From an uncultured Lachnospiraceae bacterium (GTDB taxonomy: Bacteria; Bacillota; Clostridia; Lachnospirales; Lachnospiraceae), in contig CANQNN010000007.1 of NCBI GenBank assembly GCA_947625205.1, positions 1 through 64,000 of the forward strand: DNA of 64,000 nt, read 5' to 3'. Positions 29,510 to 52,861 of the stretch are shown in pieces. The notes under the pieces are model-generated. The model did not search any database and was not told the DNA's origin. It was given only the letters and a program-made list of their open reading frames with translations. Made by a program: the position numbers and the translations under genes. The stretch's first letter is position 1, and each line of letters begins with the position of its first letter.

Positions 29510-29537
29510 AGAATAAAAAAGAAAGGATCTGTCCATT

Positions 29538-30264
29538 ATGAAAATTTGGGCACACAGGGGATGCAGCCAGAGATATCCGGAAAATACGCTGCTTGCTTTT
29601 GAGAAAGCTGCAAAAATAGACGGCCTTACCGGGATCGAACTGGATATCCAGATGACTAAAGATGATCATATGGTGGTCATTCATGATGAGCGTGTGGATA
29701 GAACTACGGAAGGTTTTGGATATGTTAAAGATCATACGTTGGCAGAATTAAAAAAGCTGCATATCTACGCAGATGAAAACCCGGCCCAACAGATCCCGAC
29801 TATTGAAGAGGTTTTGGATCTTTTGGAAGATCGTATGAAAATCGGTATGAAACTGAATATTGAACTGAAAAATAGCGTATATCCGTATGAAGGGATGGAA
29901 GAACAGATCGTAAATTTGGTTCATGCAAGAGGGCTGCAGGAGCAAGTGGTCTATTCTTCTTTCAGCGCACTATCTTTGGAAAAATTGAGAAAATTGGATG
30001 CGGAAACAGAGTTAGGGATATTAGATTATAAAGTTTCTGATTGTTTATATAAATTGCGGGGCGGCTGCGGCGCAAATGCCCTACATCCATATGGGGGGGG
30101 GTATAGACATATCGCATAGTCAAATTGAAAATTATGCGGTAAGGGCATATTTTTCGGGTCATTTATATCCAGAGAAACCCAACGGTTCCCGACTCGATTT
30201 AAACCGATTGGCAAGCAAGGGTGTTACGGATGTATTTTTAAATGAGCCGGAAGTATATGTTTAA
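29538..30264 (+). pseudogene. Glycerophosphodiester phosphodiesterase, frameshifted in a G9 tract (phase-variable candidate)
   Basis: The frame starts at 29538 behind GAAAGGA and shows a GDPD: HRGCSQRYPENT, IELDIQMTKDDHMVVIHDERVDRTT contain the catalytic His-Arg, Glu-x-Asp and His. After PYGGG it leaves the family and stops at 30119 (193 residues). The expected end (AVRAYFSGHLYPEKPN...GVTDVFLNEPE) continues in another frame to 30264. The switch lies in nine G at 30093-30101. With eight G the reading frame is continuous and gives 241 residues, normal for the family. So the gene is off as sequenced, by slippage or by a sequencing error. It would cleave glycerophospho-diesters, perhaps the glycan's own phospho-linkages. 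Confidence 0.85.
30093..30101 (+). repeat. G9 homopolymer tract in the GDPD gene
   Basis: Nine consecutive G inside the coding region. With G9 the downstream frame is lost, with G8 it is restored. Confidence 0.95.
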
Positions 30265-30273
30265 GAAAATGAT

Positions 30274-31509
30274 ATGGAAAAATCGGTGATTAAACAGAAA
30301 GTTATTAGAGTTATTTTTTGGGGGATCAATGAAACAATATTAAAGTTCATCAAAAATGAAATTGATCCTCGCAAGGCGAAAATCGTGGCTTTTGTAGATT
30401 CGAATAAAAATCGTCAAGGCGAAGTGTACATGGGAATTACAGTACGATCACCGGAAATTGTTGACATAGACAGCGCTGAATGTATTATTGTTGGCGCATT
30501 GTCCGCATATCAGGGAATTAAGCAGACGCTTACTGAAGTAGGTTGTCCGGAAGCAAAAATTCATCCGTTTATCACGCCGCATTTGCCGCAATATTGTTTG
30601 GGAGATATTACGGATATAAATGAGAGACTGGTCGAGAAAATTTATTTTGAATCGGCTATGTTGCGACAGGTGATCGCAAAATATAAATTGTTGTATCAAG
30701 AATATCACAGCATAGCGCCGCTTGTAGAAGATAAGCATGCATGGTATCAGAAAAGTGATTTGATCGCTCATGCTTGCGGTGGCATAGTGAATGGAAGGCA
30801 CTTTATGTATACAAATTCTAAGGAGGCATTAGAGCATTCGCTGGCACAGCATTTTGAACTGATTGAATGTGACGTGTGCGGCATAATGACGGGTGAACCG
30901 GTATTGGCACATTCTTATATGAATATCTATGAGGCGGAAGAAGCCGGATACACACTTTTAAATTTATCAGATGTGCTGTTACGCATCAAGGAGTATCCGA
31001 AAGTAAGCTTGTTGTTGGATATCAAATGGACAGATTATCATGATTATGAAAGTTATGTTGTCTTCACAGATCAAGAGATCGCAAGAATAGCTGAAAGTCC
31101 GGTGCAAGCACAGCAGATGCGCGATCAGATCGTGTTGGAAGTTTATGATGAATCAACAATTCAAATCGCAAATAAATATGGGTATAAAATGGCGCTCACA
31201 TCTTATCGAAATCCTGATGGGCATATTTTTATGAATACAGCGATACTATGTCATCGGTATCATATTAACGTGGCACTTGTTCCAAATGATTTTTTTGCAA
31301 TAGACAGTGGGGGAATGAAAAGCCACGGAGCAAAATTTTTACCTATTTTGACAGATAAAAATATAAAAGTTTTTTGTTTTAGCACAGACTCCATGAAAGA
31401 TTACGAACATCTAAAAGAGATTGGCGTAAAGGGTATTTTTACAAATTATTTGACGCGAGTTAATATAGGTGAAATAAAGAATGGAGCATTGGCAGGCGGC
31501 GATGAGTAA
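30274..31509 (+). CDS. Rossmann-module protein with GDPD/PI-PLC-like phosphodiesterase domain
   Basis: 411 residues, weak ribosome site. Residues 10-115 form a Rossmann-like module: RVIFWGINET then IVAFVDSN and a gap of about 70 to GALSAYQG. Residues about 160-400 form a TIM-barrel phosphodiesterase: AHACGGI, LIECDVCG and LAHSYM correspond to the His, Glu-x-Asp and His of GDPDs. It starts ten bases after the phase-variable GDPD, so the cluster carries two such enzymes. Cytoplasmic. Base use becomes clearly AT-rich from here on. Role: trimming or recycling of phosphodiesters, inferred. Confidence 0.75.
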   Translation: MEKSVIKQKVIRVIFWGINETILKFIKNEIDPRKAKIVAFVDSNKNRQGEVYMGITVRSPEIVDIDSAECIIVGALSAYQGIKQTLTEVGCPEAKIHPFITPHLPQYCLGDITDINERLVEKIYFESAMLRQVIAKYKLLYQEYHSIAPLVEDKHAWYQKSDLIAHACGGIVNGRHFMYTNSKEALEHSLAQHFELIECDVCGIMTGEPVLAHSYMNIYEAEEAGYTLLNLSDVLLRIKEYPKVSLLLDIKWTDYHDYESYVVFTDQEIARIAESPVQAQQMRDQIVLEVYDESTIQIANKYGYKMALTSYRNPDGHIFMNTAILCHRYHINVALVPNDFFAIDSGGMKSHGAKFLPILTDKNIKVFCFSTDSMKDYEHLKEIGVKGIFTNYLTRVNIGEIKNGALAGGDE

Positions 31510-31582
31510 GAAGTCATAGCGATATATTTAAATGGCGCATAATTAGTCAAAGTATGTATGTTTTATAATACGGAGGATATGC

Positions 31583-32392
31583 ATGATAATTCTAACAGAC
31601 GAACAACTTCACAAACTGCAGCAGATAGAGTTGGAATTATTGCAGGAAGTTCATCGTATATGTAAAAAATGTGATATTCATTATACCATAATTGCCGGGA
31701 CCATGTTAGGAGCAGTGCGGCATGCCGGCTTTATTCCTTGGGATGACGATGCGGATGTAGCGTTGCTTAGACCTGAGTATGAGAAGTTCCGAAGAGCGTG
31801 CAAAACGGAGTTGGATACAAATCGATTTGTTTTTCAGGATCATAGAAATACTAAAGGATATCGCTGGGGATATGGAAAATTGCGAAGAAAGAATACATTA
31901 TTTTTACGGGAGTATCAGGAGAATATGCCATATATGCAAGGCGTTTTTATTGATATATTTCCGCTTGACAGTGTACCGGATAATTATTTTTTGAGAAGCC
32001 TAAATAATTTTGAGTGTTTTTGTATTAGGAAACTGTTATGGGCAAAAGTAGGAAAAGTATCTGAAAAAAGTTGGTGGAAACAGCAAATATATATGTTGCT
32101 TGATCTTGTACCGGAAAAAATAGTTTTTGAATATTATCGCGGCATGGTGATGCGGGCAGCACATATGAAAACGAGAATGGTAAGAATACTGACGTTCCCG
32201 ACACCAAATAGTGAATACGGATATTATCGATGTTGGTATGAAAATAGTACAGACATACTATTTGAAGGCATCATGCTTCAAGGAATTAAAGATTACGATA
32301 GTTATCTAAGCTTTAAATTTGGAAATTATATGAAGTTACCGCCTGTACAAGAAAGAAAAACCCACCCCATATCAGATATCAAATTGTTATAA
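31583..32392 (+). CDS. LicD-family phosphotransferase
   Basis: 269 residues, GGAGG upstream. The LicD/FKTN signature is clear: AGTMLGAVRHAGFIPWDDDADV supplies the metal-binding Asp residues, and GVFIDIFPLD follows. LicD proteins transfer phosphocholine or polyol phosphates from CDP donors to sugars of teichoic acids or glycans. Cytidylyltransferases in the cluster could make the donor; no choline kinase LicA or transporter is visible, so the group transferred need not be choline. No membrane segments. Confidence 0.87.
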   Translation: MIILTDEQLHKLQQIELELLQEVHRICKKCDIHYTIIAGTMLGAVRHAGFIPWDDDADVALLRPEYEKFRRACKTELDTNRFVFQDHRNTKGYRWGYGKLRRKNTLFLREYQENMPYMQGVFIDIFPLDSVPDNYFLRSLNNFECFCIRKLLWAKVGKVSEKSWWKQQIYMLLDLVPEKIVFEYYRGMVMRAAHMKTRMVRILTFPTPNSEYGYYRCWYENSTDILFEGIMLQGIKDYDSYLSFKFGNYMKLPPVQERKTHPISDIKLL

Positions 32393-32442
32393 TACACTAA
32401 TTATTTTAGTTGTTATTAAGGTAATTATGGAGGTAACTTATT

Positions 32443-33561
32443 ATGCGGCAAATAAGAGTTTTGCAGTTTACTTTGGCAGCCGGTAAAGGTGGACCGACGC
32501 AGTACATTTTAAATAATTGGAAGTATATTGATAGGGCAAGGTTTCAGTTTGATTTTATTACTTTTGCGAGAGAACTTGACTATGAGAGACCGTTGCAGCA
32601 AGAGGGCTGCCGAATATATCATATATCCTGCTATCCGGAAAAAGACAAAAAACAGTTTGTTAAGGAATTAGACAACATATTAGATCATGGGTATGATGTC
32701 ATGCATATTCATACCACTGCATGGAAAGACACGATCGTAGAAGAAAGAGCTAAGGCAAAAGGAGTCAGAAAAATTATAATCCATGCGCATACAACCGGAT
32801 GCGTCAATATAGTACAAGAAGAACAACGGCAAGAGGAAGAGTATATTCATTATAGTATTCGGAACAAAATCTCAAAAGAAATGGCTACTGATTATTGGGC
32901 ATGTTCTGGGGCAGCGGCTGAATGGTTGTATGGAGACAGGATCGATTGCAAATATATTAAAATAATGAATAATGCAATCGATTTGAATAGATTTGCTTAT
33001 AATGAAACTGTTAGGCAGGAAGTACGGCATGCGGTCGGGCTGGATTCAAAATTTGTGATAGGTCATGTAGGACGGTTGGAATATATTAAAAATCATATTT
33101 TCTTATTGCAAATATTATCCCATATTAGTTGCCGGATCCCCGAAGCAGTGCTGTTATTAGTAGGGGATGGCAGATTACATGAAGATATTAAAAGAAAAGC
33201 GGATAAACTTGGTTTGTCAGATAGAGTAATCATGTTGGGCAGACGCGATGATACAGAGCGCTGGTATCAGGCAATGGATGTATTTGCTTTGCCGTCATTA
33301 AGTGAAGCTGCGCCTCTTGTTTTATTGGAAGCGCAGACTTCGGGATTAGCATGTATATGTAGTGAAAATGTGTCTAATGAATTCTTTTATACAGGGAATG
33401 TGCAAAAAATATGTTTATCTGCGCCAGAAGACTGGGCGACTGCATTAATACGTTTAAGTAACGGGTATGAGAGAAGGGATCAAAGTGCCATCATGCGAAA
33501 AGCTGGATTCGATATTAAACAACAAGTGAAAGAATTGGAAAAAGAGTATGAAGAAATATGA
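32443..33561 (+). CDS. Family 4 glycosyltransferase
   Basis: 372 residues, GGAGG upstream. A GT-B fold: N-terminal half with VLQFTLAAGKGGPTQYI (glycine loop) and DVMHIHTT, C-terminal half with IGHVGRLEYIKNH, LLLVGDGRLHED and the donor-binding E-x7-E region SLSEAAPLVLLEAQTSG. Probably retaining and nucleotide-sugar dependent. Its last 14 bases overlap the start of the next gene. Sugar donor unknown. Confidence 0.9.
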   Translation: MRQIRVLQFTLAAGKGGPTQYILNNWKYIDRARFQFDFITFARELDYERPLQQEGCRIYHISCYPEKDKKQFVKELDNILDHGYDVMHIHTTAWKDTIVEERAKAKGVRKIIIHAHTTGCVNIVQEEQRQEEEYIHYSIRNKISKEMATDYWACSGAAAEWLYGDRIDCKYIKIMNNAIDLNRFAYNETVRQEVRHAVGLDSKFVIGHVGRLEYIKNHIFLLQILSHISCRIPEAVLLLVGDGRLHEDIKRKADKLGLSDRVIMLGRRDDTERWYQAMDVFALPSLSEAAPLVLLEAQTSGLACICSENVSNEFFYTGNVQKICLSAPEDWATALIRLSNGYERRDQSAIMRKAGFDIKQQVKELEKEYEEI

Positions 33562-34417
33562 ACATTGGCAGATCGCATATCGGCTAAAGGGCGAAAAAAA
33601 ATTTAAATTGATTTCAAACCCGTCTTACGCATGGGCGGCAGACCCTTTTTTGGTAGAATACCAAGGGCATGTGTTTTTATTTGCAGAGTTGTATTTATAT
33701 AGATCCGAACGGAATGGGGTGATCGGATACTGCGAATATCGTGAAGGGGAGTTCGGCGAGTGGACTGTTACTATGGATAAGCATTGGCATCTTTCGTATC
33801 CAAATGTGTTTGTCTATGAAAATAAATTATATATGTGCCCGGAGTCCTATCAAAGAGAAGAAATTGGTATTTATGAATTGGAATCTTTTCCGGATAAATG
33901 GAGAAAGGTGCAGACATGGAATAGCAACCAGGCATGCGTAGATACGACTTTTATCATATATAATGGCGTTCCGTACATGTTTACATTCGAACTTGGCGAA
34001 AAAAAGTGCAGTGGTCGATTACTTGCATATCAGTTGCGAGACAAATGTTTATCAGAGCCAGTGCTCATTACAGAAGATATAAGTTTGGCAAGACCGGGTG
34101 GAAATTTTATTATGGAAGATGGGAAGCTGTTTCGTGTTGGACAGGATTGTTCTGCGACATATGGGGCGGGGTTAACATTCTGTGAAGTAGAGCGTATTTG
34201 GCCCGCATATAAGGAGTCTGTGGTCAGAAGATTATATCCTAAGGATATAGAGATCGGGTTCGCAGATAAACGATATAAAAGAAAATACACTGGACTCCAT
34301 ACATATAATCGACTGAATGGATTGGAAGTAATTGACCTAAAATATGAAACATATTCCAGAGAAGAAAAACAGGCGCAAAAAAGAGTTCGGAAAGTTTTCC
34401 TTAATAAGTATGAGTAG
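33548..34417 (+). CDS. GINT1-like five-bladed propeller protein
   Basis: 289 residues, starting inside the end of the GT4 gene. The blade pattern (YAWAADPFLV, HVFLFAELYLY, HLSYPNVFVYENKLYMCPES, YELESFPDKW, GNFIMEDGKLFRVGQ) matches the N-terminal propeller domain of glucosamine inositolphosphorylceramide transferase-like proteins, which also occurs alone in bacterial glycan clusters. It resembles GH43/GH68 folds but catalytic acids are not certain. Coupling to the GT4 gene suggests the two act on the same sugar. Confidence 0.65.
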   Translation: MKKYEHWQIAYRLKGEKKFKLISNPSYAWAADPFLVEYQGHVFLFAELYLYRSERNGVIGYCEYREGEFGEWTVTMDKHWHLSYPNVFVYENKLYMCPESYQREEIGIYELESFPDKWRKVQTWNSNQACVDTTFIIYNGVPYMFTFELGEKKCSGRLLAYQLRDKCLSEPVLITEDISLARPGGNFIMEDGKLFRVGQDCSATYGAGLTFCEVERIWPAYKESVVRRLYPKDIEIGFADKRYKRKYTGLHTYNRLNGLEVIDLKYETYSREEKQAQKRVRKVFLNKYE

Positions 34418-34433
34418 CAGCGGATGGAAGAAC

Positions 34434-35510
34434 ATGGAAGAAATTATTGTTTTTGGGACGGGAAGATATTATCAAAACAAAAAGCCTGAGTTAGAGAAAA
34501 ATTATAGAGTAATAGGGTTTCTGGACAATGCAGTAAAACCAGGCAGTCAAAGAGAAAAAGATGGAAAATCGGTATATCATCCGGAAGATCATGCTATGTT
34601 TCCGAACACCCCGATCATATTGATGTCTGCTAAATTTTATGAGATGGCGTTTCAACTATTAGCATTGCATGTGGATCAGAAACGGATTCGTTTTGGCTTG
34701 GAACTATTTCCATATTATGATGAAGCAGAGCGCATTTTTGCTGAGCTGCAGGTTTCCTGGGGAATTGAGAATAATAAGCTGACACTGCAGTATGAAAATC
34801 ATAGATATTGTTTTAGTACTGAACAAGAGTATAAACAAGTTTTACGGGCGTTATATATGAAACATCACCCGTATATTTCGCTTTTGGCCAATATGCCAAT
34901 TAATCCGGTCAGCAGAAGATTTGGAAATGAAATTGGGACGCCCATAGACAGGTATTATATAGAAAAATTCATAGAAGAGCATAAATCAGATATTCATGGA
35001 GATGTTGTAGAGATAGCAGACGATGAATACACTCGAAAATTTGGAACAGACATTTCCCATTCTTATATTTTGCATGTAAATGGCTGGGGGGGGGAGAATG
35101 TGATCCGGGGGAATCTGTCAACTGGAGAGGGCATTGTAGAAAATATGGCGGATTGTCTGATCTGTACACAGACAATTCAGATGATTTATGATATAAATGC
35201 TGTTGCTGCCAATATTTATAAATTATTAAAACCCAATGGGGCAGCTCTAATTACGGCACATGGTATTTCACAGTTATCAATGTATGATTATCATAATTGG
35301 GGAGAATATTGGCGGTTTACTAAGATGAGTGCCCAACAGTTATTTGAACGGTATTTTGATAAGAAAAAGATACAGAGTTTTTCTTATGGGAATATGAAAA
35401 TGGCTGTCTGTTTCATGTATGGACTTTCCCAGGAGTGTTTAAATATGTCCGAGATGGAATGTGTTGACGAGCAGTATCCATTAATTATTGGAATAGCAGT
35501 AAAAAAGTAA
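34434..35510 (+). CDS. Rossmann-module methyltransferase-like protein with in-frame G9 tract
   Basis: 358 residues from the ATG at 34434; an in-frame ATG at 34410 is possible but overlaps the previous stop and lacks a ribosome site. Residues 1-105: EIIVFGTGRYY, VIGFLDNA, the module shared by many cluster proteins. Residues about 185-358 resemble a class I SAM-dependent methyltransferase (DVVEIADDEYT, NMADCLICTQTIQMIYD, LLKPNGAALITAHG). Nine G at 35086-35094 encode Trp-Gly-Gly near residue 219; the frame is intact as sequenced, while one G more or less would cut the catalytic domain. What it methylates is unknown. Confidence 0.75.
   Translation: MEEIIVFGTGRYYQNKKPELEKNYRVIGFLDNAVKPGSQREKDGKSVYHPEDHAMFPNTPIILMSAKFYEMAFQLLALHVDQKRIRFGLELFPYYDEAERIFAELQVSWGIENNKLTLQYENHRYCFSTEQEYKQVLRALYMKHHPYISLLANMPINPVSRRFGNEIGTPIDRYYIEKFIEEHKSDIHGDVVEIADDEYTRKFGTDISHSYILHVNGWGGENVIRGNLSTGEGIVENMADCLICTQTIQMIYDINAVAANIYKLLKPNGAALITAHGISQLSMYDYHNWGEYWRFTKMSAQQLFERYFDKKKIQSFSYGNMKMAVCFMYGLSQECLNMSEMECVDEQYPLIIGIAVKK
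35086..35094 (+). repeat. G9 homopolymer tract in the methyltransferase-like gene
   Basis: Nine consecutive G in the coding strand. In frame as given, so the gene is on. A change by one base would truncate the protein near residue 220. Confidence 0.95.
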
Positions 35511-35545
35511 ATCGATTTGAGATCGAAAGGGAAAATAGAGGATCT

Positions 35546-36934
35546 ATGAAAAGCCAAGCGGAAAAGTATAAGGTATCTGTTATAATGCCAGTATATAATT
35601 CTCAAAGATATTTGCGGGAATGTATAGCTAGTGTTCTTGATCAAACATTAAAGGAAATCCAGATCATATGCGTGGATGATGGGTCTACAGATGATTCGCT
35701 TGCTATTCTGGAAGAATACAGTATGGTATATTCCAATCTTCAGATATTGCATACGGAACATATTGGAGCGGCAAATGCCCGTAATACAGGATTAAAATAT
35801 GCTAAGGCAGATTATGTTATTTTTTTGGATAGTGATGACTTGTTTGAAAACGATATGCTTGAAGAGATGTTTAATAGTGCCGTGGCATATGATGCCGATG
35901 TCGTAGTTTGCCAGTATGATCGTAATATTTCAACCCCCTCGACAGGGTACTTAGATTATGTTTTATCAAGTTATATGAGGAGATATGGGCAACAGACTTT
36001 TACGCTAAGAGAATTGCCACTAGAAGGATTACTATTATTGGACAATAGTCCATGGGACAGGTTGTGCAAGAAGTCCCTCTTGATCGATAACGGGATCTTA
36101 TTCCAGGATTTGAAAGGGGCTAATGATGTATACTATGCACATATGGCAGTAATTTGCGCGAATCGTATTATACATACACATAGTTTTAAACCAATGATCC
36201 ATTATAGAAGAATCAATAATGAATCTCAGATATCCAATAGGCGCAAGGTGAGTGATATATATGAGGCATATAAAGCTGTATATTTGAAACTTGTTGAAAT
36301 TGGGCGGATTGAAGAATTATATGAAAAATATTTTATGGTAGCTTTTGGCATGATTGTACAAGGACTGTCAGGTGCCCAAGGAAATGATGCGGAAAATAAG
36401 AAATTTTATGATTTTTTTGTTAAATCAGGAATGAAAAATATAGGATTAGAGCAAGGGATAGAACATGAAGGCTTGGGTGTATATCGACAATACCCATATT
36501 ATTTTAAGAGTTATTCGTATGAAAGTAAATGGTATACAAAAAAAATTCTTATAGGACTCCAATTAGAACAAAAAGGAATGTCTGAAATGGAATTTTTGTG
36601 TAAACAAAATCAAGTAGTGATTTGGGGTGCCGGAACACAGGGAATAGTGATAGTTGAAGTCTTACAAGAGCATGGTATTCGTTTGGCAGGAATAGTTGAT
36701 AATTCATTGGCTAAACAGGGAATGTTTGTTTGTGGGTATGAAGTGAAAGCATTTCAACAAGTATGTGAAGAAATGGATATTGCTGTAATATCAAGCAAGG
36801 TCTATTTTGAGTCGATTTGTGAAAGTATACGTCGATGCGGTATGGAAAAGGTAAAAATTTTGCCTTTATTTGCGTATGTTGAATCCGAACTAGCTTTAGA
36901 AGATTGTATTTTTACTATAGATGAGATGCGATAA
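35546..36934 (+). CDS. GT2 glycosyltransferase with C-terminal Rossmann module
   Basis: 462 residues, AGAGGA upstream. Residues 8-235 are a GT-A domain: VSVIMPVYNSQRYL, CVDDGSTDDS, and FLDSDD as the metal-binding DxD. Residues about 355-455 are the recurrent Rossmann-like module: VVIWGAGTQG, LAGIVDNSLAKQG, then AVISSKVYFESI. The donor sugar is unknown. The fused module may bind a nucleotide or sugar-nucleotide, or hold the cluster enzymes together; both are inference. Confidence 0.88.
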   Translation: MKSQAEKYKVSVIMPVYNSQRYLRECIASVLDQTLKEIQIICVDDGSTDDSLAILEEYSMVYSNLQILHTEHIGAANARNTGLKYAKADYVIFLDSDDLFENDMLEEMFNSAVAYDADVVVCQYDRNISTPSTGYLDYVLSSYMRRYGQQTFTLRELPLEGLLLLDNSPWDRLCKKSLLIDNGILFQDLKGANDVYYAHMAVICANRIIHTHSFKPMIHYRRINNESQISNRRKVSDIYEAYKAVYLKLVEIGRIEELYEKYFMVAFGMIVQGLSGAQGNDAENKKFYDFFVKSGMKNIGLEQGIEHEGLGVYRQYPYYFKSYSYESKWYTKKILIGLQLEQKGMSEMEFLCKQNQVVIWGAGTQGIVIVEVLQEHGIRLAGIVDNSLAKQGMFVCGYEVKAFQQVCEEMDIAVISSKVYFESICESIRRCGMEKVKILPLFAYVESELALEDCIFTIDEMR

Positions 36935-36991
36935 AGTATATTTACTCGGATCATGGCGAAAAGAAATTAAAAATATCAAGGTGGTGCGGCA

Positions 36992-37489
36992 TTGAAAAAG
37001 AAATATCGTAGAAGGTCAAAAAAGGTAATTGCACTTTTGTTGTACGTTGCGGGCATTGGATTTAGTGCATTTGAATTTGGATTGATCGTGAGTAAAAACA
37101 AAGATGATGTTATAAAGAAGTATAAGTCATATTTTTATTTAATGTTAGAATGGATGACAATATTGGAGAATGGAAAATTAATAAGTGACTATTTAGATGA
37201 AAAAGGGTATACCCGGATAGCAGTATATGGTGGTAGAGATATGGGTGAACATCTTGTAAAGCAGATCGTGGAAAGGGATATTTCGGTTGCATATATTATT
37301 GACAGGTCATTATCTCGATTTAAATATGATATACCGATCTATACTTTAGAAGATCAGTTGCCAATGGTAGATGCTATTATTGTAACGCCAATATGGGATT
37401 ATGGTAATATTAAAACAAAATTGTCAGCGAAGGTAAGCTGTCCTATAATTCCGATGGATAATTTGATTGTGAGAGATGCAGATGAGTAA
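36992..37489 (+). CDS. Stand-alone Rossmann-module protein with N-terminal hydrophobic segment
   Basis: 165 residues from a TTG behind AAGGTGGTG. A basic start (KKKYRRRSKK) and one hydrophobic stretch at about 11-32 suggest a membrane anchor, the only one I see in the cluster. Residues about 65-160 are the same module as in its neighbours: IAVYGGRDMGEHLV, VAYIIDRSLSR, and AIIVTPIWDYGNI. No catalytic domain is attached. It could hold partner enzymes at the membrane. The next gene starts in its last codons. Confidence 0.65.
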   Translation: MKKKYRRRSKKVIALLLYVAGIGFSAFEFGLIVSKNKDDVIKKYKSYFYLMLEWMTILENGKLISDYLDEKGYTRIAVYGGRDMGEHLVKQIVERDISVAYIIDRSLSRFKYDIPIYTLEDQLPMVDAIIVTPIWDYGNIKTKLSAKVSCPIIPMDNLIVRDADE

Positions 37490-38297: not shown

Positions 38298-38308
38298 GAT
38301 GACGTAAT

Positions 38309-39325: not shown

Positions 39326-39341
39326 CATTGAGGAAATATGT

Positions 39342-40529: not shown

Positions 40530-40549
40530 AAATTTGAAAGAGGTCATAT

Positions 40550-42106: not shown

Positions 42107-42109
42107 GAA

Positions 42110-43456
42110 ATGCCAAAAGTCACAGTGCTTATGCCGACACTTAATGTAGTTAAGTATATAGATGCATGCATGAAAAGTGTGCTTTCCCAGACGATGCAGG
42201 ATATTGAAGTTATTGTTATTGATGCAGGATCTAATGATGGCACAATGGAAATTTTAAAAAGTTACGCCAGTATGGACGAGCGCATAAAGTTAGTACATTC
42301 TGACATAAAAAGTTATGGATATCAGATAAATATGGGGCTTATTCTTGCACAAGGAGAATATATAAGTATTGTTGAGACGGATGACATAATTGTTTCAGAT
42401 ATGTATGAAGTATTATATGAAACAGCTGTTAGGACAAAGGCGCAATATGTTAAAGGAACGTTTCAGAAGTTTATAGAGATTAGTCCGGAGATCTATTGGT
42501 ATGATAATATGGGAATTATCATAAATGATGCCAAGCTGTTTGGAAAAGTTATTGAACCAAGATATATGCCGGAGTTGCTTGTCAGTGATATTTATTTATG
42601 GACAGGAATTTATAGAAGAGATTTTTTACATAACGTGAGATTGAATGAAACTGTAGGAGCCGCTTTTCAAGATCAGGGTTTTTTGTTTCAGACTATAAGT
42701 TCTGCAACAAGAGCAGTATATCTGAACAAAGTGGTTTATTGGTATCGACAGGACAATAGTAATTCTTCTGTTATCAATAGAAAAGGGTTTCGATATATTA
42801 AAGAAGAATATGCTTACATAGGAAAATTTTTACCGGCACGAGGTGTAAAATGGGTCAATGCCTATTATGTAAGAATGTTGAATCAGTGCATAGGCCGTTT
42901 TGAAATGATGGCATTGTCCGGAGCATTTTGGTATGAAGCAGTGCCTGATATGGAGATCCTTAGGCAAAAATTATTGGACGCTGTGCGGACCGGATCACTA
43001 TTGACCTCACAAATACCAGATTTGAAAAGGCATTTATTGCAGATGTATTTAAATGGAGCTGAAACGATTTATTCGTACATTGCATCTGAGTTTAATAGCA
43101 AAATTGCTTCCATTCATAAATTATTTCAGAACGTAGAGGCTCAGCAAACGCTTATTTTTGGCGGTGGGAAGTGTGGAAGATTTGTTCATGCTATGTTGGA
43201 AAGGAAATATCCCGGATCGGTATTGGCGTATTGTGATAACAATGCAAAATTATGGAATACTCAAATTCAAGGATTATCTGTGTTGTCTCCGCAGGCAGCA
43301 ATAGAAAAATATTCTGCGGCTTTATATGTAATTGCAAATTTAAATTATACTGATACTATTCAAAATCAGCTTATAAATATGGGCGTTTCTCCATATAAAA
43401 TATATATATATTCAGGTGCAATCGATGCTCGGTTATTTCGAATTATAGAGGAATGA
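42110..43456 (+). CDS. GT2 glycosyltransferase with C-terminal Rossmann module
   Basis: 448 residues, GGAG upstream, three bases after the previous stop. Residues 1-230: VTVLMPTLNVVKYIDACMKS, VIDAGSNDGT, IVETDD as DxD. Residues about 345-440: QTLIFGGGKCGRFV, VLAYCDNNAKLWN, LSVLSPQAAI, YVIANLNYTDT. The module is closest by eye to the one at 38309 (both have DN.AKLW), so the copies seem to have spread by duplication inside this cluster. Confidence 0.87.
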   Translation: MPKVTVLMPTLNVVKYIDACMKSVLSQTMQDIEVIVIDAGSNDGTMEILKSYASMDERIKLVHSDIKSYGYQINMGLILAQGEYISIVETDDIIVSDMYEVLYETAVRTKAQYVKGTFQKFIEISPEIYWYDNMGIIINDAKLFGKVIEPRYMPELLVSDIYLWTGIYRRDFLHNVRLNETVGAAFQDQGFLFQTISSATRAVYLNKVVYWYRQDNSNSSVINRKGFRYIKEEYAYIGKFLPARGVKWVNAYYVRMLNQCIGRFEMMALSGAFWYEAVPDMEILRQKLLDAVRTGSLLTSQIPDLKRHLLQMYLNGAETIYSYIASEFNSKIASIHKLFQNVEAQQTLIFGGGKCGRFVHAMLERKYPGSVLAYCDNNAKLWNTQIQGLSVLSPQAAIEKYSAALYVIANLNYTDTIQNQLINMGVSPYKIYIYSGAIDARLFRIIEE

Positions 43457-43475
43457 TAAAAAGAAGGATAGGCTT

Positions 43476-45719
43476 ATGAATATTACAGATAATTTAAATC
43501 AGATTATTATAAAGTATCATATAGATCGGTATTATCCGGGATTTCAGATGAAGCTTCAGGCGGATAAATTATTAAAGAAAACTATTACGGAGAAAAGCGC
43601 TAAGGATAAGAAAATCGTTTTTGTTAGTACTAATAACGATGCGATCGATTATATTAAGGCGTTGATTGGAGAAGGAGAATACGAAGAGATCGAAGGTTAT
43701 GTAATATCTGAAAAAACGCCAGATAAATTTGTATGGGATCATATAACAGATTCCCATATAGTTTATTTGGTATCCTATCATCACATGGAAATGGCGAGCA
43801 AAATATTAGAAGAGCATGGCATCATTTATGAAAGTATATATGATATTTTAGCACGTCACGGATTGATGTTCGAAGATGAGTATTATTATGTAATACCTAA
43901 TAAATATGATGATATTAAGATACCGGGAAGATATTCATTGTCACTAAAGAGAATGGGTAATTGTCAAATTGAATATTTCTTTTTAAAAAGCAGCTATAAA
44001 CAGTCTCGTGAAGTTGTCTTAAGAAGTACTCATCTGGAAAAGATGTTATTTCTTTCTTTATATATGAAAAATTTTGTAGAAGCCACACAGTGTATTAAGG
44101 AAATGCGGGATAATAATAGCATAAGCGACAACATTGAGAATGCATGGGCGGAAATTACTTCAATGTTAGATAAAATTAGAGAAGTGATTCAGAAAAGGAC
44201 ATGCAAGGACGTGATTTGGTTTTGGATGGATGCAGTTAGTTATGAGGCATATAAGGAAATGACATATCTAAAGTGTATAAAAACTCAAAGCATTTCTTTC
44301 AGCAACGCATTTACCAACATGCCATACACAAATGCCACTTTAAGAGCAGCCTTTTGTCAAAAGACTTGTGTTGAAGATCGATCATATATAATTAGAACCA
44401 TCGATAACGATTCCAGTGAAATGTTAAATTGGTTAACTGCCGAAGGGTACTTAGTCAGAACGTTTAGTAAAGTTTTTGTAAAAAGTATTAAGGTGGATAA
44501 CATAAGGGGAGGTGAGGAGAAGGGTGAAGAGAATTTTTATGAAGCAGCATCTTTGAACTTTTGGAATATGTTGCAAAGTCTTATGGATCGTGAAAATAAA
44601 TATTTTATTCTTGCCCATGCGATCATGGAAACGCATGCACCATGCTTATCTTTCAAAATGGAAGGTTTAGGGCGATGTAGTGAAAAGGAGCTGGCATATT
44701 ATGGCAAGAAAGAGTTGGATGAACAATTACAATTTTACAATTCTTTTTTAGGGAAGGATTCTATAAGAATTTTCATGAGTGATCATGGAAGGAATGCGGC
44801 CGATTTTTTGGAGAGACATCACATACATTTGGATATTTATCATACAGGATACACTCCCCAAAAAATCGATGGAATGTTTTCCATTCTTGATTTTTATCCT
44901 CTGGTAAGAGATGTGATATGGGATAGAAAATTTAATTGGGAAGCGTTGCTAAGAAATTATGTGCCAATTGAAAATTTGGATCGGTATAATAGAGAAGATA
45001 TACAAGATTTGTTTGTAAATAAAAAAATATGTCCGATTTGGTACTTTGGATATAAAGGTGTGATCACAAATAGTAATATATATGTGCGATTTAATATAGG
45101 AAATGAATATCTATTTGACAGAAATCATAGATTAATTCCGCTTTTATGCATTAAGAATATCATTGAAACTGGTGAAAATATATGTAGTTTTAGACAACGG
45201 GCAGGAAGTTATCCGTTAGAAATCTTGGGAGAAGATAAATTTAAATACTCGAGGTATATGCATAAATTGTATGAAATATATCAGGTTAGAAGTCATACGT
45301 TGATTCAATATTTAAATGAAAAAATGAAAGGACTTCTATTTGAGGAAAAAGAAAATAGCGTTGCAATTAGAACTGGCGGAGTACATTCATATTACGTATA
45401 TGCAATATTGTCGAAAGAATTGAAACAAAAAGTGGGAAGCTTTATTGACTTTCATAGAGATTGTATGTGTTCTTTATATGGAAAAGAGATCGTTGAAAAT
45501 ATGGAAAGGTGTAATGAAAAAATACAAACTGTTATTCTGTCTTCATATCGCTATAGAGAACAATTGCGAGAAGAAGCAAAAAATTATCCATCGCATATTC
45601 ATGTAATTGATATATATGATGTATTTGACCAAATGGGATATCGCTTTAAACAGGATTTTTATCTTACAATGGGATTACAGGAAGAAGATTACGATACAAT
45701 TGTTAAATTTGATGTTTAA
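43476..45719 (+). CDS. Three-part protein with soluble alkaline-phosphatase-superfamily domain (paralogue 1)
   Basis: 747 residues, ribosome site AAGGATAG. N-terminal part (1-180) carries a degenerate nucleotide-binding-like strand (KIVFVSTNNDAID). Middle part (about 245-480): IWFWMDAVSYEAY, FTNMPYTNATLRAAF, AHAIMETHAPC, and IRIFMSDHG look like the metal and nucleophile motifs of sulfatase/phosphoethanolamine-transferase-type enzymes. C-terminal part (about 630-740) is a second Rossmann-like stretch (NSVAIRTGGVHSYYVYA, TVILSSYRYREQL). Unlike EptA or LtaS it has no membrane helices, so it should act in the cytoplasm. Its paralogue is at 48496. Family not recognised as a whole. Confidence 0.65.
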   Translation: MNITDNLNQIIIKYHIDRYYPGFQMKLQADKLLKKTITEKSAKDKKIVFVSTNNDAIDYIKALIGEGEYEEIEGYVISEKTPDKFVWDHITDSHIVYLVSYHHMEMASKILEEHGIIYESIYDILARHGLMFEDEYYYVIPNKYDDIKIPGRYSLSLKRMGNCQIEYFFLKSSYKQSREVVLRSTHLEKMLFLSLYMKNFVEATQCIKEMRDNNSISDNIENAWAEITSMLDKIREVIQKRTCKDVIWFWMDAVSYEAYKEMTYLKCIKTQSISFSNAFTNMPYTNATLRAAFCQKTCVEDRSYIIRTIDNDSSEMLNWLTAEGYLVRTFSKVFVKSIKVDNIRGGEEKGEENFYEAASLNFWNMLQSLMDRENKYFILAHAIMETHAPCLSFKMEGLGRCSEKELAYYGKKELDEQLQFYNSFLGKDSIRIFMSDHGRNAADFLERHHIHLDIYHTGYTPQKIDGMFSILDFYPLVRDVIWDRKFNWEALLRNYVPIENLDRYNREDIQDLFVNKKICPIWYFGYKGVITNSNIYVRFNIGNEYLFDRNHRLIPLLCIKNIIETGENICSFRQRAGSYPLEILGEDKFKYSRYMHKLYEIYQVRSHTLIQYLNEKMKGLLFEEKENSVAIRTGGVHSYYVYAILSKELKQKVGSFIDFHRDCMCSLYGKEIVENMERCNEKIQTVILSSYRYREQLREEAKNYPSHIHVIDIYDVFDQMGYRFKQDFYLTMGLQEEDYDTIVKFDV

Positions 45720-45768
45720 AGTATTGACCATAAAATATGTTTCAAGTTGCAAAGGGATGATATAAATA

Positions 45769-48129
45769 ATGAAAACGGAAGAACTGATTCGGGAATTACC
45801 TAAAGGATTGTTGGCGTGGTATGATTTTCATAGTGCCAGCAAAGCGTTATGTATAACTGCCAAACCAGAAACAGACAGTGTATTTCAGGAGATGTTACAG
45901 GATAAGGATATTAAAACAGATGTAATAGATATCCACTCTTTTGAGAACAACGTTGGCCGGTTTTCACAAGATTTAGCTTTTATGTGTGATTATCATTATA
46001 TTGTTATGGTGGGTGCTTTAGAATGTAGCAAAAATCCAGAATGCATTTTGAGCGCAGTGAGAAAGATGCTGCATCCTGAAGGGAAGTTACTGATAGGCGC
46101 TGATAACCGCCTGGGTATTCGCTATTTTTGTGGAGATAGAGATGCTTACACCGAACGAAATTTTGACGGCATTGAAAATTATGCGCATATCAATCCAAAA
46201 GACCGAGATCAGATGAGCGGACGAGCATATGCCAAGGCAGAACTTGTACAGATGTTGCATAATGCGGGATTTATGAACTACAGATTTTATTCGATTTTTC
46301 CGGTGTTGGAAAGACCGCAAGTGATATATGCGGAAGATCATCTGCCCGAGGAAGAATTGGAAGTGCGTCTTTTCCCTCAATATCATTATCCGGACACTGT
46401 CTTTTTGGAAGAAGAACGGTTGTATACAACACTGATCCAAAATGGATTATTTCATGCTATGGCAAACGGTTATCTGATTGAGTGTACCCCAAGTAATGGA
46501 CTGGCAAATGTAAAGCAAGTGACGGTATCCATGGAACGAGGTAGAGAGAATGCGATGTTCACAATTATTCGGAGGGATGATAAAGTTGAGAAAAAACCAG
46601 TATACAGACAAGGACTTGTAAAATTAGATCGTCTTATACAAAATACATGGGATTTACAGCAACATGGAATAAAAATGGTAGATCTGCAGAAGGAACGGAA
46701 TGCAGTTATTATGCCTTATGTTAAGGGAGAGCCGGTTACAGATTATTTTAGGAAATTACTTCGTAGAGACAGAGAAGCTTTTTTAAGTGAGTTAGACCGT
46801 TTTTGGAATTTAATTGTAAATTCGTCAGAATCTGTGCCCTATGAGGAGATGGATTGGGAGCGGTTCGAACCAGACTGGGAAAAACGCAAAGCAGATGATC
46901 CTAACTGGGATAAATGGAAAAAGATTGCTTTTGGCACTGAAGAAGACAGAAAAAAACTTGGTGTTATTTTGAGGCGAGGCTATATTGATTTGGTTTCCTT
47001 AAACTGTTTTTATGTGGATGGAGAGTTTGTCTTTTATGATCAAGAGCTATATATTGAGAATCTTCCAGCCAAAGCGATCCTAGAAAGAACAATAAGATTT
47101 ATATATCATGGCAACAGTGAATATGAGGCGTTACTGCCACAAAAGCAGTTAGAAGAAAGATATCAATTAAGTGAATATATGGATCTATGGAATAAATTCA
47201 TAAGCTTTTTTTTGAATAAATTACGCAATGATCTGGATCTTGCAGCTTATAACAAAATGTACAGAAAAGATCCCATGGTCATTAATTCAAATAGACAGAG
47301 GATGAATTATTCGACCGAAGAGTATGACAGGCTGTTTGGCAATATTTTTGATGGGATCGAAACCAGGAAACTATATTTGTTTGGCTCTGGAAATTTTACA
47401 AAATTGTTTATGTCAAGATTCGGTAAGGAGTATGAAATAGAAGGGATCGTTGATAATGATTCAAGTAAATGGGGACAACAATTGTTTAATATTCCTATTT
47501 ACGAGCCAAACTATTTGCAAACACTTTCGATGGGCTCTTATAAAGTAATCGTTTGTATCAAAAATTATGTGCCAGTTATGAAACAATTAATACAATTGGG
47601 TATCAGAGATTTCGGTATTTTTGACAGTAATAAGAATTATTCCAGGAAGGTGGAACAAATTATAAAAAGGCAAAAAAAAGAAGATGTTATATCGAAGAAA
47701 TATCATATTGGTTATATAGCAGGAGTTTTCGACTTGTTTCATATAGGACATCTGAATCTTTTACGTAGAGCGAAAGAGCAATGTGACTATTTGATCGTTG
47801 GGGTTGTTAATGATGAAAGTGTCGTTAATAATAAGAGAACGATGCCGTATATTCCGTTTGCAGAGAGGATCGAAATTGTTCGTTCTTGCCGATATGTGGA
47901 TGAGGCGGTGGAGATCCCGACAGACTATAATAATACAGATGAGGCATACAGACGATATCATTTTGATGTACAATTTTCGGGTAGCGATTATGAAAATGAT
48001 CCCATATGGCTTAGTAAGAAGACATGGCTGCAAAAGCAAGGGGCGGATCTGGTGTTTTTCCCTTATACGCAGTCAACCAGTTCAACTAAGATCAAGGATG
48101 CGATTCGGACAAAAAATCCGGTTATGTAG
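45769..48129 (+). CDS. Four-domain protein: methyltransferase, kinase-like, Rossmann module, cytidylyltransferase
   Basis: 786 residues. About 20-180: SAM-dependent methyltransferase-like (YIVMVGALECSKNPECIL, LHPEGKLLIGADN). About 240-500: a stretch reminiscent of small-molecule or protein kinase-like folds (LVKLDRLIQNT, VIMPYVKGEPVTDYF, DLVSLNCFYVDGEFVFYDQE). About 533-635: the recurrent module (KLYLFGSGNFTKLF, IEGIVDNDSSKWG, VIVCIKNYVPV). About 645-786: a TagD-type cytidylyltransferase (GVFDLFHIGHLNLLRRAK, FSGSDYEND, SSTKIK). Such a protein could phosphorylate, methylate and CDP-activate one small molecule in sequence, which is inference. Substrate unknown. Confidence 0.75.
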   Translation: MKTEELIRELPKGLLAWYDFHSASKALCITAKPETDSVFQEMLQDKDIKTDVIDIHSFENNVGRFSQDLAFMCDYHYIVMVGALECSKNPECILSAVRKMLHPEGKLLIGADNRLGIRYFCGDRDAYTERNFDGIENYAHINPKDRDQMSGRAYAKAELVQMLHNAGFMNYRFYSIFPVLERPQVIYAEDHLPEEELEVRLFPQYHYPDTVFLEEERLYTTLIQNGLFHAMANGYLIECTPSNGLANVKQVTVSMERGRENAMFTIIRRDDKVEKKPVYRQGLVKLDRLIQNTWDLQQHGIKMVDLQKERNAVIMPYVKGEPVTDYFRKLLRRDREAFLSELDRFWNLIVNSSESVPYEEMDWERFEPDWEKRKADDPNWDKWKKIAFGTEEDRKKLGVILRRGYIDLVSLNCFYVDGEFVFYDQELYIENLPAKAILERTIRFIYHGNSEYEALLPQKQLEERYQLSEYMDLWNKFISFFLNKLRNDLDLAAYNKMYRKDPMVINSNRQRMNYSTEEYDRLFGNIFDGIETRKLYLFGSGNFTKLFMSRFGKEYEIEGIVDNDSSKWGQQLFNIPIYEPNYLQTLSMGSYKVIVCIKNYVPVMKQLIQLGIRDFGIFDSNKNYSRKVEQIIKRQKKEDVISKKYHIGYIAGVFDLFHIGHLNLLRRAKEQCDYLIVGVVNDESVVNNKRTMPYIPFAERIEIVRSCRYVDEAVEIPTDYNNTDEAYRRYHFDVQFSGSDYENDPIWLSKKTWLQKQGADLVFFPYTQSTSSTKIKDAIRTKNPVM

Positions 48130-48147
48130 GAGAGAAGAGCTATTAAT

Positions 48148-48489
48148 ATGATGGATATTGAACTTGAACTGGAGAATATCATCATACAAGGCAGCTACTT
48201 TCGATCATGACGCAGGAAAGTATAGAAAAAATCGACGGTATTATTGATAAAGCTCTGGAATGCTTATGCGCCGGTCTCGAATCCCCGATTTGAAAGCCCG
48301 ATCATATCTTGCTGGATGAGGCAAAGATCCCTTTGCATTCCAGCAGACGATATTTACGCAAACTGCAAACAGAAGCTAGGGATATCTATCTCAAATGAAG
48401 CTTTTGGATATATACGGGATGTGGCGGGAAAAGGATCGGATTTTCCGAGAGAATTTTGGTACGGCACCAAGGACGATTGGAGAGAATAG
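48148..48489 (+). pseudogene. Decayed coding stretch between cluster genes
   Basis: The gap between the genes at 45769 and 48496 holds broken frames: a 19-codon start (48151), then MTQESIEKIDGIIDKALECL ending in TGA after ESPI, then HILLDEAKIPLHSSRRYLRK in the same frame ending in TGA. Other frames are open only in pieces (48244-48489). This looks like a small gene lost to several mutations. Its family is not recognised. Confidence 0.4.
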
Positions 48490-48495
48490 GATACA

Positions 48496-50706
48496 ATGAA
48501 TATCACAAAGGAACTGGATCAGATCATTGTGAAGTATCAGTTGGACAGGTATTATCCCCGATACCGCCTGAAGCTGCGGGCTGAGGAGTTGATCGAAAAA
48601 TTGATATTACATACAGCCGAAACCGCAAGGATCGTATTGGTCGGTGCACATGGAGATGACACTAACTACACGGAGGAATTGGTGAACAGATACCGGGAAG
48701 TGAAATGCTATGTCCTGACGGATCCGGATATAGCGCAAGCTGCCTTGCACGATTTGCAGAGTGCGGATCTCGTATATCTCGTTTCTTTCCGTAATGCATG
48801 GAAGACAAAGGCAGTTTTGGATGAATATCATATTCGATATGAGGATCTGTATGATCTTTTCTTATGTGAAGGGCTTGTTTTTGAAGACGAGTACTATTTA
48901 GTATCTGTAGATATTTATCAGGATCATAAGCTGCAGGTAAAATTCGGAAAGGAACTCAGAGATAGAGGAGCGCTGCAGATAGAGTATTACTTCCTTACGA
49001 AACAATACGAACAGACAGAGAATGCTGCGCTAAGAGAGATAATATCAAAAAAGAAATTGTTTCTTGCGCTGTACATGAAGAATTTTGTAGAAGCCGAGAA
49101 ATGTGTTAAGACAATGCGGCAGGATGGAACAGACATTCATATCGAAGAAGCATGGAAAGAGATCACGGGGCTGCTGGACAGTATTAAGACGATGATGTCA
49201 CAAAGGCGGGCGGAAGATATTCTCTGGTACTGGTTGGATTCCGTCAGCTACGATGATGCGGAAAACATGCTGTATTTGCAGGAAATGAAAGACAGATCGG
49301 TCTCCTTTACAAACGCGTTCACCAATATGCCATATACACATGCAACGTTAAAAGCAGCCTTTTGTCAAAAAAGAAGCGTTGCGGATCGTTCATACAGGAT
49401 CGAGGTCATCAGCGAGAAAAATAGTGATCTGTATTTCTGGCTAAAAGCAAATGGATATCAAATCAAGGTCCTGAGTAAGGGATTTAAAAAAATTTTTAAC
49501 AAAGAATGTGAGGCGCAATATTATCTTGCAGCATCAAGTTGTTTATGGAAAGCGTTGGAATATCTGACGGGAGATGACAGAAAATATTTTATGTTGATTC
49601 AGGCGTTAGAGGAGTCGCATTCGCCGTATTTTTCTTTTCAGATGCCGACATTGGCTAATCCCGCTGAAATGCTGTATTTCGGGAAAAAGGAATTAGATGA
49701 GCAGTTGGCGTTTTACGGCAGTCTTCTGGGGGGGGGTATACTGCAGATATTCATGAGCGATCATGGATGGCAGGGTGGCGATTTTTTGGCAAGTCATCAT
49801 ATTCATATGGATTTTTTTCACCCGGATATCAGACCGCAGAAAATAGACAGGATATTTTCGATCCTTGATTTTTATCCTGTGCTCAGACAGTTGATAGAAG
49901 ATAGACATATCCACGACGATATGCCGGCAAGAGAATATGCGCCGATCGAGAATTTAGACAGATATTCCACGGCGGATATCAAAGAAATTTTCCGTAGGAA
50001 AAATGTGGATCTGATCCATGCGTTCGGGTATGTGGGCGTGATCTCGCAGGATGAAATATATGTCCGCTTTTCTGTAGGTAACGAGTATCAGCACAGTCGT
50101 AAAAACCCCCATTGGCGCCCAAAACTGTTTGTGGAGAGCGATATCGAAAAACCGGAAAATGCGGCAAAACTGCGGGACGCAGCAGGAATATACCCGCTAG
50201 AACTCTTGCGGGAAGATAAGTTTGCGTATACCAGATATTTGCATAAACTGTTTGAAATATATCGAATCAGAGAAAAAGAACTGATCAACGCCTTCAATGA
50301 GAAAATAGCTGCGCTTTTATCCGAATGCGGAGATAGCAGTGTTGCCATTCGGACTGGCGGAGAACATTCGTATTATTTATATGCTATATTAGAGGAGACA
50401 ATAAAAAGAAAAATAGGATTATTTATCGATTATACTGAGAACTGCCTGTGCGCTTCCTATGGGAAGAAAGTCGTTGACAGTATAGAGAATGTCGGCAAGG
50501 AGATCAAAGTTGTCCTTTTATCGTCTTTTCTTTACAGACAACAGTTGCGGGACGAGGCAGTCACATATCCTGCGGATATAATGGTGATCGATGCCTATAC
50601 AGTGTTTGAACAGATGGGCTATTGTTTTAAACAGGAATTTTATGGTACTATGGGATTACGGGAAAGTGATTTTGATCATGTTTATAAGAATGAGGACGAT
50701 GTGTGA
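48496..50706 (+). CDS. Three-part protein with soluble alkaline-phosphatase-superfamily domain (paralogue 2, G9 tract)
   Basis: 736 residues. It aligns along its whole length with the protein at 43476: same start (NITKELDQIIVKYQLDRYYP), same LWYWLDSVSYDDAE, FTNMPYTHATLKAAF, ALEESHSPY, LQIFMSDHG and C-terminal SVAIRTGGEHSYYLYA. It is visibly less AT-rich than paralogue 1, so the copies have different histories. Nine G at 49728-49736 encode Leu-Gly-Gly-Gly just before the SDHG metal motif (near residue 411), where paralogue 1 has LGKDS without a G run. In frame as given; a one-base slip would remove SDHG and the C-terminal part. Likely phospho-group transfer or hydrolysis, not proven. Confidence 0.65.
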   Translation: MNITKELDQIIVKYQLDRYYPRYRLKLRAEELIEKLILHTAETARIVLVGAHGDDTNYTEELVNRYREVKCYVLTDPDIAQAALHDLQSADLVYLVSFRNAWKTKAVLDEYHIRYEDLYDLFLCEGLVFEDEYYLVSVDIYQDHKLQVKFGKELRDRGALQIEYYFLTKQYEQTENAALREIISKKKLFLALYMKNFVEAEKCVKTMRQDGTDIHIEEAWKEITGLLDSIKTMMSQRRAEDILWYWLDSVSYDDAENMLYLQEMKDRSVSFTNAFTNMPYTHATLKAAFCQKRSVADRSYRIEVISEKNSDLYFWLKANGYQIKVLSKGFKKIFNKECEAQYYLAASSCLWKALEYLTGDDRKYFMLIQALEESHSPYFSFQMPTLANPAEMLYFGKKELDEQLAFYGSLLGGGILQIFMSDHGWQGGDFLASHHIHMDFFHPDIRPQKIDRIFSILDFYPVLRQLIEDRHIHDDMPAREYAPIENLDRYSTADIKEIFRRKNVDLIHAFGYVGVISQDEIYVRFSVGNEYQHSRKNPHWRPKLFVESDIEKPENAAKLRDAAGIYPLELLREDKFAYTRYLHKLFEIYRIREKELINAFNEKIAALLSECGDSSVAIRTGGEHSYYLYAILEETIKRKIGLFIDYTENCLCASYGKKVVDSIENVGKEIKVVLLSSFLYRQQLRDEAVTYPADIMVIDAYTVFEQMGYCFKQEFYGTMGLRESDFDHVYKNEDDV
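49728..49736 (+). repeat. G9 homopolymer tract in the second phosphatase-superfamily paralogue
   Basis: Nine consecutive G in the coding strand, in frame as given. The homologous position in paralogue 1 has no such run, so the tract is not forced by the protein sequence. Confidence 0.95.
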
Positions 50707-50840
50707 TCTGCGTTGAGAAAATATAAGATCTGGCAGCGGAAGCAGGTTAAGTAAATTTCATTGAAGCCGGATCTATTCGGGGTATTAAAATATGGATAAG
50801 GATAAGTAGTGTGTCTATCCAAACAGGAGGTCGCAATACA

Positions 50841-52859: not shown

Positions 52860-52861
52860 AG

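Follow-up and report, generated by a model that had tools for sequence, protein, structure and literature searches.

Poly-G switch-like genes are known from Campylobacter and have hardly been reported from gut commensals such as the Lachnospiraceae. The poly-G/C tracts of Campylobacter are most often nine (53%) or ten (26%) units long, 77% of them lie in open reading frames (ORFs) and 5% are poly-C; a strain carries 5–81 phase-variable genes at a length cut-off of 7 (PMC6321876). A 2025 review raises, as a major open question, that genomes rich in phase-variable loci seem to be confined to pathogens (PMC11868660). In Mediterraneibacter gnavus, a member of the Lachnospiraceae, capsule promoter expression was not bimodal, according to a 2026 paper (PMC13121745). 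Judged by title and the start of the abstract, none of the matches listed in the open-access literature, which leaves most subscription papers outside, reported poly-G phase variation in Lachnospiraceae. Here we describe a 64-kb stretch (the window) of contig C7 from the 2.9-Mb, 44-contig assembly of an uncultured Lachnospiraceae bacterium (genome G000), in which three runs of nine G (G9) lie in genes of one putative surface-glycan cluster. These tracts are very probably contingency loci in a Campylobacter-like poly-G phasome, which here would vary a teichoic-type glycan cluster. In what follows, C-numbers are contigs of G000, L-numbers are the loci (stretches or homologues) that were compared, and G-numbers such as G019 are other genomes.

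The initial annotation had reported three G9 tracts, on the coding strand and within coding regions of one glycan cluster. A run count found them at exactly those positions (Table 1), all three on the sense strand of ORFs. As it had also claimed, the window holds no other G or C run above five: G runs are 1–5 long apart from the three of nine, and C runs reach at most five. Using a random genome sample, we determined that, with the tracts excluded, run counts drop about 0.14–0.20-fold for each further G. With its 17 runs of five as the starting point, the window should then hold about 0.01 (0.03 at most) runs of at least nine; three were observed, so that chance had rightly been called unlikely. 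Plain Markov estimates, in which the tracts themselves are included, give 0.03 to 0.4 runs of nine. The description of the region as AT-rich is true in a mild sense, with 44% G+C in the window by base counts against 49% in the random genome sample. The tracts are longer than base composition predicts, and they sit inside ORFs, where one unit shifts the frame, as would be expected of poly-G contingency loci.

The tracts are not peculiar to this cluster. We found 78 G/C runs of at least eight in the genome: 12 of eight, 60 of nine, 6 of ten and none above ten. In 406 kb made up of the window and the flanks of each tract (about 3 kb each way), a set chosen for tracts, there were 1039 runs of four, 152 of five, two of six and none of seven, followed by the same 12, 60 and 6. 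As an unbiased control we took 20 random 10-kb stretches from 17 contigs, leaving out C10, the smaller contigs and the window. In these 200 kb, the G/C runs number 82 of five, one of six, none of seven, one of eight and six of nine. The A/T runs decay smoothly, from 532 of five through 166, 50 and 17 to three of nine. Thus, the second peak at nine after a near-empty interval at 6–7 is a property of G/C runs only. ORFs of at least 70 amino acids are overlapped by 56 of the 78 tracts, 46 in sense and 10 in antisense only, and 22 overlap no such ORF. Tens of tracts, dominated by G, peaking at 9–10, mostly in sense and in surface genes, are what a multi-locus phasome would look like.

Could the real lengths differ from the G9 calls because of assembly or sequencing error? 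Some platforms, which may include the one used for this assembly, are error-prone at homopolymers. Three of the 78 tracts (C33:58, C2:290304 and C23:42607) stand no more than about 190 bases from a contig end; such breaks could hint at mixed lengths in the sample, and three cases are too few to argue from. However, one would not expect errors to produce 60 runs of nine while leaving length seven empty, or to gather in glycan genes and in certain species of a single genus, and the A/T runs are ordinary. We regard this explanation as barely credible.

The reading frame can serve as a recorder of length change. We used 178 tracts from four genomes (78 of 78 in G000, 49 of 83 in G098, 32 of 48 in G019 and 19 of 39 in G020) and required at least 50 open codons both before the tract, counted from a start codon, and after it, for which 79 tracts qualified. 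The genes with G9 were in frame in 45 cases and out of frame in 18 (n = 63). Those with G8 or G10 were in frame in two cases and out of frame in 13 (Fisher 5.4e-5 against G9), and the single G11 gene was in frame. A length of nine would bring every one of these 13 out-of-frame genes into frame, an outcome with a chance of 1 in 8192 were the two wrong frames equally likely. Codon thresholds of 40, 80 and 100 gave the same picture, and controls placed within these ORFs at distances of 90 and 150 bp were in frame 193 times and out of frame 16 times. The simplest account of this link between length and frame would be that nine is the usual length and that slippage changes it by one.

Some tracts appear to lie in promoters. 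An exact TTGACA is found within 30 bp upstream of 12 of the 178 tracts and downstream of two. We scanned for a −35 box with at most one mismatch and a spacer of 14–21 bp, a range widened after some sequences had been read by eye; the −35/tract/−10 arrangement occurs at 14 of the 178 tracts, always in the G direction, and shuffles gave a mean of 3.3 and a maximum of 9 (n = 200). A narrower scan, with 16–18 bp spacers and at most three mismatches, gave a weak excess (5 of 22 intergenic tracts, 1.8 expected), and at four mismatches none (8 against 7.9 expected). Downstream of the promoter-type tracts lie a DUF4854 protein and, by eye, lipoprotein-like and zinc-ribbon proteins. When the first downstream ORFs, some of which may not be true genes, were compared, only one pair was homologous, and most promoter-type tracts look independent.

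These data bear on programmed slippage, in which the DNA tracts would be fixed and RNA polymerase or the ribosome would slip, so that out-of-frame genes still yield some full-length protein. Homopolymers can promote slippage, a tract in a histidine-kinase gene is equally long in four species, and the mismatch-repair genes are intact, all of which agree with it. However, lengths vary between genes (8, 9, 10) and track the frame as single-unit changes in DNA would. Moreover, slippage on messenger RNA would be useless at the 22 tracts outside ORFs of at least 70 amino acids, some of them in promoter spacers. We consider programmed slippage very unlikely.

To describe what the tracts would switch, we searched Pfam with 50 proteins overlapping or directly beside G000 tracts. 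By our own count, 25 belong to surface-glycan families, or 23 without two generic methyltransferases; this category was drawn after the matches had been seen. Acyltransferases include Acyl_transf_3 four times (once below cut-off) and MBOAT. Membrane and other glycosyltransferases and their relatives are represented by GT2, GT87, GtrII, YfhO, DUF6056 (twice) and DUF2142; the two DUF families we take to be glycosyltransferase-like. There are also two formyltransferases, five methyltransferases of FkbM and other types, a DegT aminotransferase, two hexapeptide/PglD proteins, a polysaccharide deacetylase, a LytR-CpsA-Psr protein and a glycosyltransferase-pyruvyltransferase. Non-glycan genes with tracts encode regulators (AraC type, histidine kinase, GGDEF-EAL), a Schlafen-type protein and a phage-type Dam, and 14 of the 50 proteins had no Pfam match at 1e-4. 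Among 20 random control genes of at least 150 amino acids with no tract within 150 bp, two fell into surface-glycan families, one of them below the Pfam cut-off and the other on a tract-rich contig. Fisher's test of the enrichment against these controls gave 0.0023. The Dam gene carries G10 (L047, about position 1658). Among 80 viral or phage loci around Dam-type genes (L261–L340), 36 have G/C runs of at least seven and 32 of at least eight, perhaps from glycine-rich codons. As such runs are frequent in phages, the Dam tract was left out of the argument on surface genes.

Comparison between species indicates that tracts are gained and lost, and some are kept. The YfhO gene of G000 is out of frame with a G10; in G020, which is 87% identical over 5.3 kb (L022/L074 against L075), the sequence at that site is ordinary and the gene carries a G9 elsewhere, in frame. 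The sites differ, and therefore the tract was gained independently in the same gene. One intergenic tract is shared by four species, as G9 in G000, G020 and G098 and as G8, a one-unit difference, in G019; between G019 and G098 the flanks are the same for at least 13 positions on both sides. In G000 it lies at about 3002–3010 of L024 (C5:24528), with homologues in L117 (G020), L133 (G019) and L161 (G098). There it is 136 bp ahead of a Mur-ligase-family gene and adjoins a short inverted repeat; perhaps it acts as a regulatory element and not as a frame switch. In G000, G098 (L182), L181 and L191 the histidine-kinase tract (L058) is G9; in this comparison, for which 42 loci were given, it is absent from the other 20 homologues that align across the site. 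The locus L182 lies letter for letter inside L167, on contig CANPZI010000011.1 of G098, a metagenome-assembled genome (Lapin-002__bin54) whose isolate name suggests a rabbit gut.

The tracts derive from G-rich codons through substitutions or short expansions. This origin, and the turnover seen at the YfhO gene, would also suit selectively neutral runs produced by a mutation bias of the clade without adaptive switching. However, the concentration in surface-glycan and exported-protein genes, the sense bias (46 against 10) and the placement in promoter spacers point to selection, and neutrality seems to us a highly improbable explanation.

We also surveyed runs of exactly nine in all 77 genomes covered by the genus search. 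At least one such run is present in 70 of them, and at least 25 in ten: G005 (81), G098 (69), G014 (63), G000 (60), G010 (60), G100 (53), G012 (45), G019 (39), G031 (31) and G020 (25). Next come G023 (22), G032 (20) and G064 (20). Among 298 genomes of 280 genera of the family with completeness of at least 90, 117 have none, and the maximum outside the genus is 23 (G189), then 20 (G122); these two are possibly independent cases. The tract-rich genomes are mostly adjacent in the genus listing and would form a clade if its order, as we assume, is phylogenetic. Standing among them are G099, with eight exact nines and 28 runs of at least eight, and G008, with seven exact nines.

A mutator explanation, the loss of MutS1 or MutL, was tried and rejected. 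MutS1 is over the cut-off in 74 of the 77 genus genomes, G000 included; the other three, all 66–68% complete, gave no match (two) or a weak one. MutL is over the cut-off in 14 of 14 genomes searched, split between contigs in G020. Since both genes are intact, the tracts do not follow from lost mismatch repair. New tract sites in orthologues (YfhO), the near absence of runs of 6–7 and the intact repair genes suggest that a process of the clade's own could make and hold G tracts at about nine. This might be a lineage-specific mutation bias or a property of repair or polymerase, not mutator status; we put it forward as a possible, though rather unlikely, cause. If true, such a process would set up random switching, across the whole genome, of surface glycans, exported proteins and regulators.

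Several observations weigh against phase variation. In the frame test, two of the 15 genes with G8 or G10 read in frame, and 18 of the 63 with G9 do not. The length differences seen are between genes and between species. A shared tract is often of equal length across species: the histidine-kinase tract is G9 in four, with G11, at the contig start, in L227, a locus outside the 42-locus comparison. Eight of the 14 promoter-type tracts share a spacer of 19 bp, be the run G8, G9 or G10, and such constancy speaks for a fixed arrangement more than for free variation. These eight are L031, L053, L055 and L030 in G000, L130 in G019, and L149, L155 and L159 in G098; they have TTGACA (TTGACC in L155) and a −10-like box, with a spacer longer than the usual 17. 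Ten neighbours of mostly intergenic tracts, searched later, include no surface-glycan family; three response regulators, a Mur ligase and a pilin-type signal are among them. Therefore, the enrichment is weakened from 25 of 50 to 25 of 60 (Fisher 0.013 against the same controls). The phage loci show that a G run inside a gene, taken alone, is no proof of switching. Finally, intact MutS1 and MutL keep slippage lower than in species without them.

Phase variation is nevertheless favoured, because of the peak at nine with its gap at 6–7, the link between length and frame, the concentration in surface-glycan genes, the class of promoter-spacer tracts and the concentration in some species of one genus. 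The initial annotation had proposed it from the window, and on genome-wide evidence it is now the best explanation. Slipped-strand mispairing at replication would add or remove one G and bring the part of the gene behind the tract into frame or out of it, and each cell lineage would therefore carry its own on/off set. The three window loci would be part of the genome-wide set of 78, which includes tracts in −35/−10 spacers and a few regulators. The enzymes switched here would be a phosphodiesterase of the glycerophosphodiester phosphodiesterase (GDPD) family, off in the assembly, and a methyltransferase-like and a sulfatase-superfamily-like enzyme, both on. Most likely they would trim or decorate a teichoic-acid-like surface polymer bearing phosphate or phosphonate. 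We infer the switching itself, that is high-frequency length change in living populations, as well as the alteration of the surface and the nature of the polymer.

The families in the cluster agree with such a product. Using Pfam, we found cytidylyltransferase/GFO-IDH-MocA, GDPD, LicD, several glycosyltransferases and CDP-glycerol glycerophosphotransferase, as well as more cytidylyltransferases, a phosphoenolpyruvate mutase/nucleotidyltransferase and an adenylylsulphate-kinase-like protein. Families of these kinds suggest a teichoic-acid-like polymer that contains phosphodiesters and perhaps phosphonates.

Table 1. The glycan cluster, the three tracts and the genes that carry them, with a tract-free paralogue (positions in the window)
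Feature	Position	Strand	Basis
Glycan cluster around the tracts	28133..53377	+	Pfam on 20 proteins of the cluster and its edge
GDPD-family gene, out of frame at G9	29538..30264	+	Pfam GDPD E 7.9e-35, first part
G9 tract 1, in GDPD gene	30093..30101	+	run count; orthologue sites
Gene with weak methyltransferase-domain matches (below Pfam cut-offs), in frame at G9	34344..35510	+	Pfam
G9 tract 2	35086..35094	+	run count
Tract-free paralogue of the third tract gene, 48% identical	43476..45719	+	protein alignment; no G run above five
Sulfatase/alkaline-phosphatase-superfamily-like protein, in frame at G9	48496..50706	+	Pfam Sulfatase E 1.2e-4, below cut-off
G9 tract 3	49728..49736	+	run count

One of the three genes had been described as out of frame and two as in frame, and this is what the ORFs show. 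The ORF of the GDPD gene (29538–30119) has 185 codons ahead of the tract and a stop five codons behind it; 53 codons are open in another frame behind the tract, to about 30263. Orthologues at 80–82% protein identity are present in five tract-rich congeners. Two of them that were translated (G100 and G012) read continuously through the tract site as HPYWRGIDL, and their C-terminus, missing from the G000 product, matches the 53 open codons, which bears out the reading of one gene off and two on. In the aligning orthologues the site is an interrupted G-rich stretch of tryptophan-arginine-glycine codons (HPYWRG in the two translated). With its remainder open and conserved, the G000 gene appears to be an off gene, not decayed further.

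Tract 2 lies in the C-terminal, methyltransferase-like part of its product, which has weak profile matches to solved methyltransferases. In an alignment of 11 homologues its codons form a small insertion after the residues N-G-W. Only one of 17 homologues (L376) aligns across the site in DNA; there the tract is absent, with GGGGAG in its place, 3 nt shorter. Tract 3 lies about six residues ahead of an SDHG motif (residues 421–424) that is common to all eight aligned sulfatase-like proteins, and therefore an out-of-frame allele loses the motif. The profile of this protein had no match among solved structures at E 1, and its AlphaFold2 model, from a two-sequence alignment, had a mean predicted local distance difference test score (pLDDT) of 37.5 and was not used. 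The close relative G020 gave no match to any of the three tract proteins at cut-offs of E 1e-15, 1e-8 and 1e-3 for the first, second and third.

As far as anatomy can say, the set resembles the poly-G phasome of Campylobacter (C. jejuni and relatives): G tracts that peak at nine, mostly within ORFs, on the coding strand and in surface genes. Unlike Campylobacter, the host is Gram-positive and the spread is tighter, with 60 of 78 tracts exactly nine and none above ten in G000. MutS1 and MutL are present in G000, whereas C. jejuni is known to be without MutS-type repair. In Neisseria, a G/C run between the −35 and −10 boxes of porA, opc and fetA changes the spacer length. The TTGACA-run-TACAAT/TATAAT arrangements found here are like these, but the tracts here precede lipoprotein-like and zinc-ribbon protein genes (assigned by eye). 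The number per genome is near that of Campylobacter, with 78 tracts here at a cut-off of 8 against 5–81 genes at a cut-off of 7 in Campylobacter (PMC6321876). Uncultured gut Lachnospiraceae thus reach the tract numbers of the richest Campylobacter strains, in surface-glycan genes and with mismatch repair intact. The question of restriction to pathogens thereby becomes testable from existing metagenome reads, and the finding bears on how commensals may vary their surface against phages and host antibodies. The invertible promoters of Bacteroides and Clostridioides difficile likewise provide stochastic variation in gut bacteria with surface glycans among the targets, but they work by site-specific recombination (PMC11868660), whereas homopolymer slippage is proposed here.

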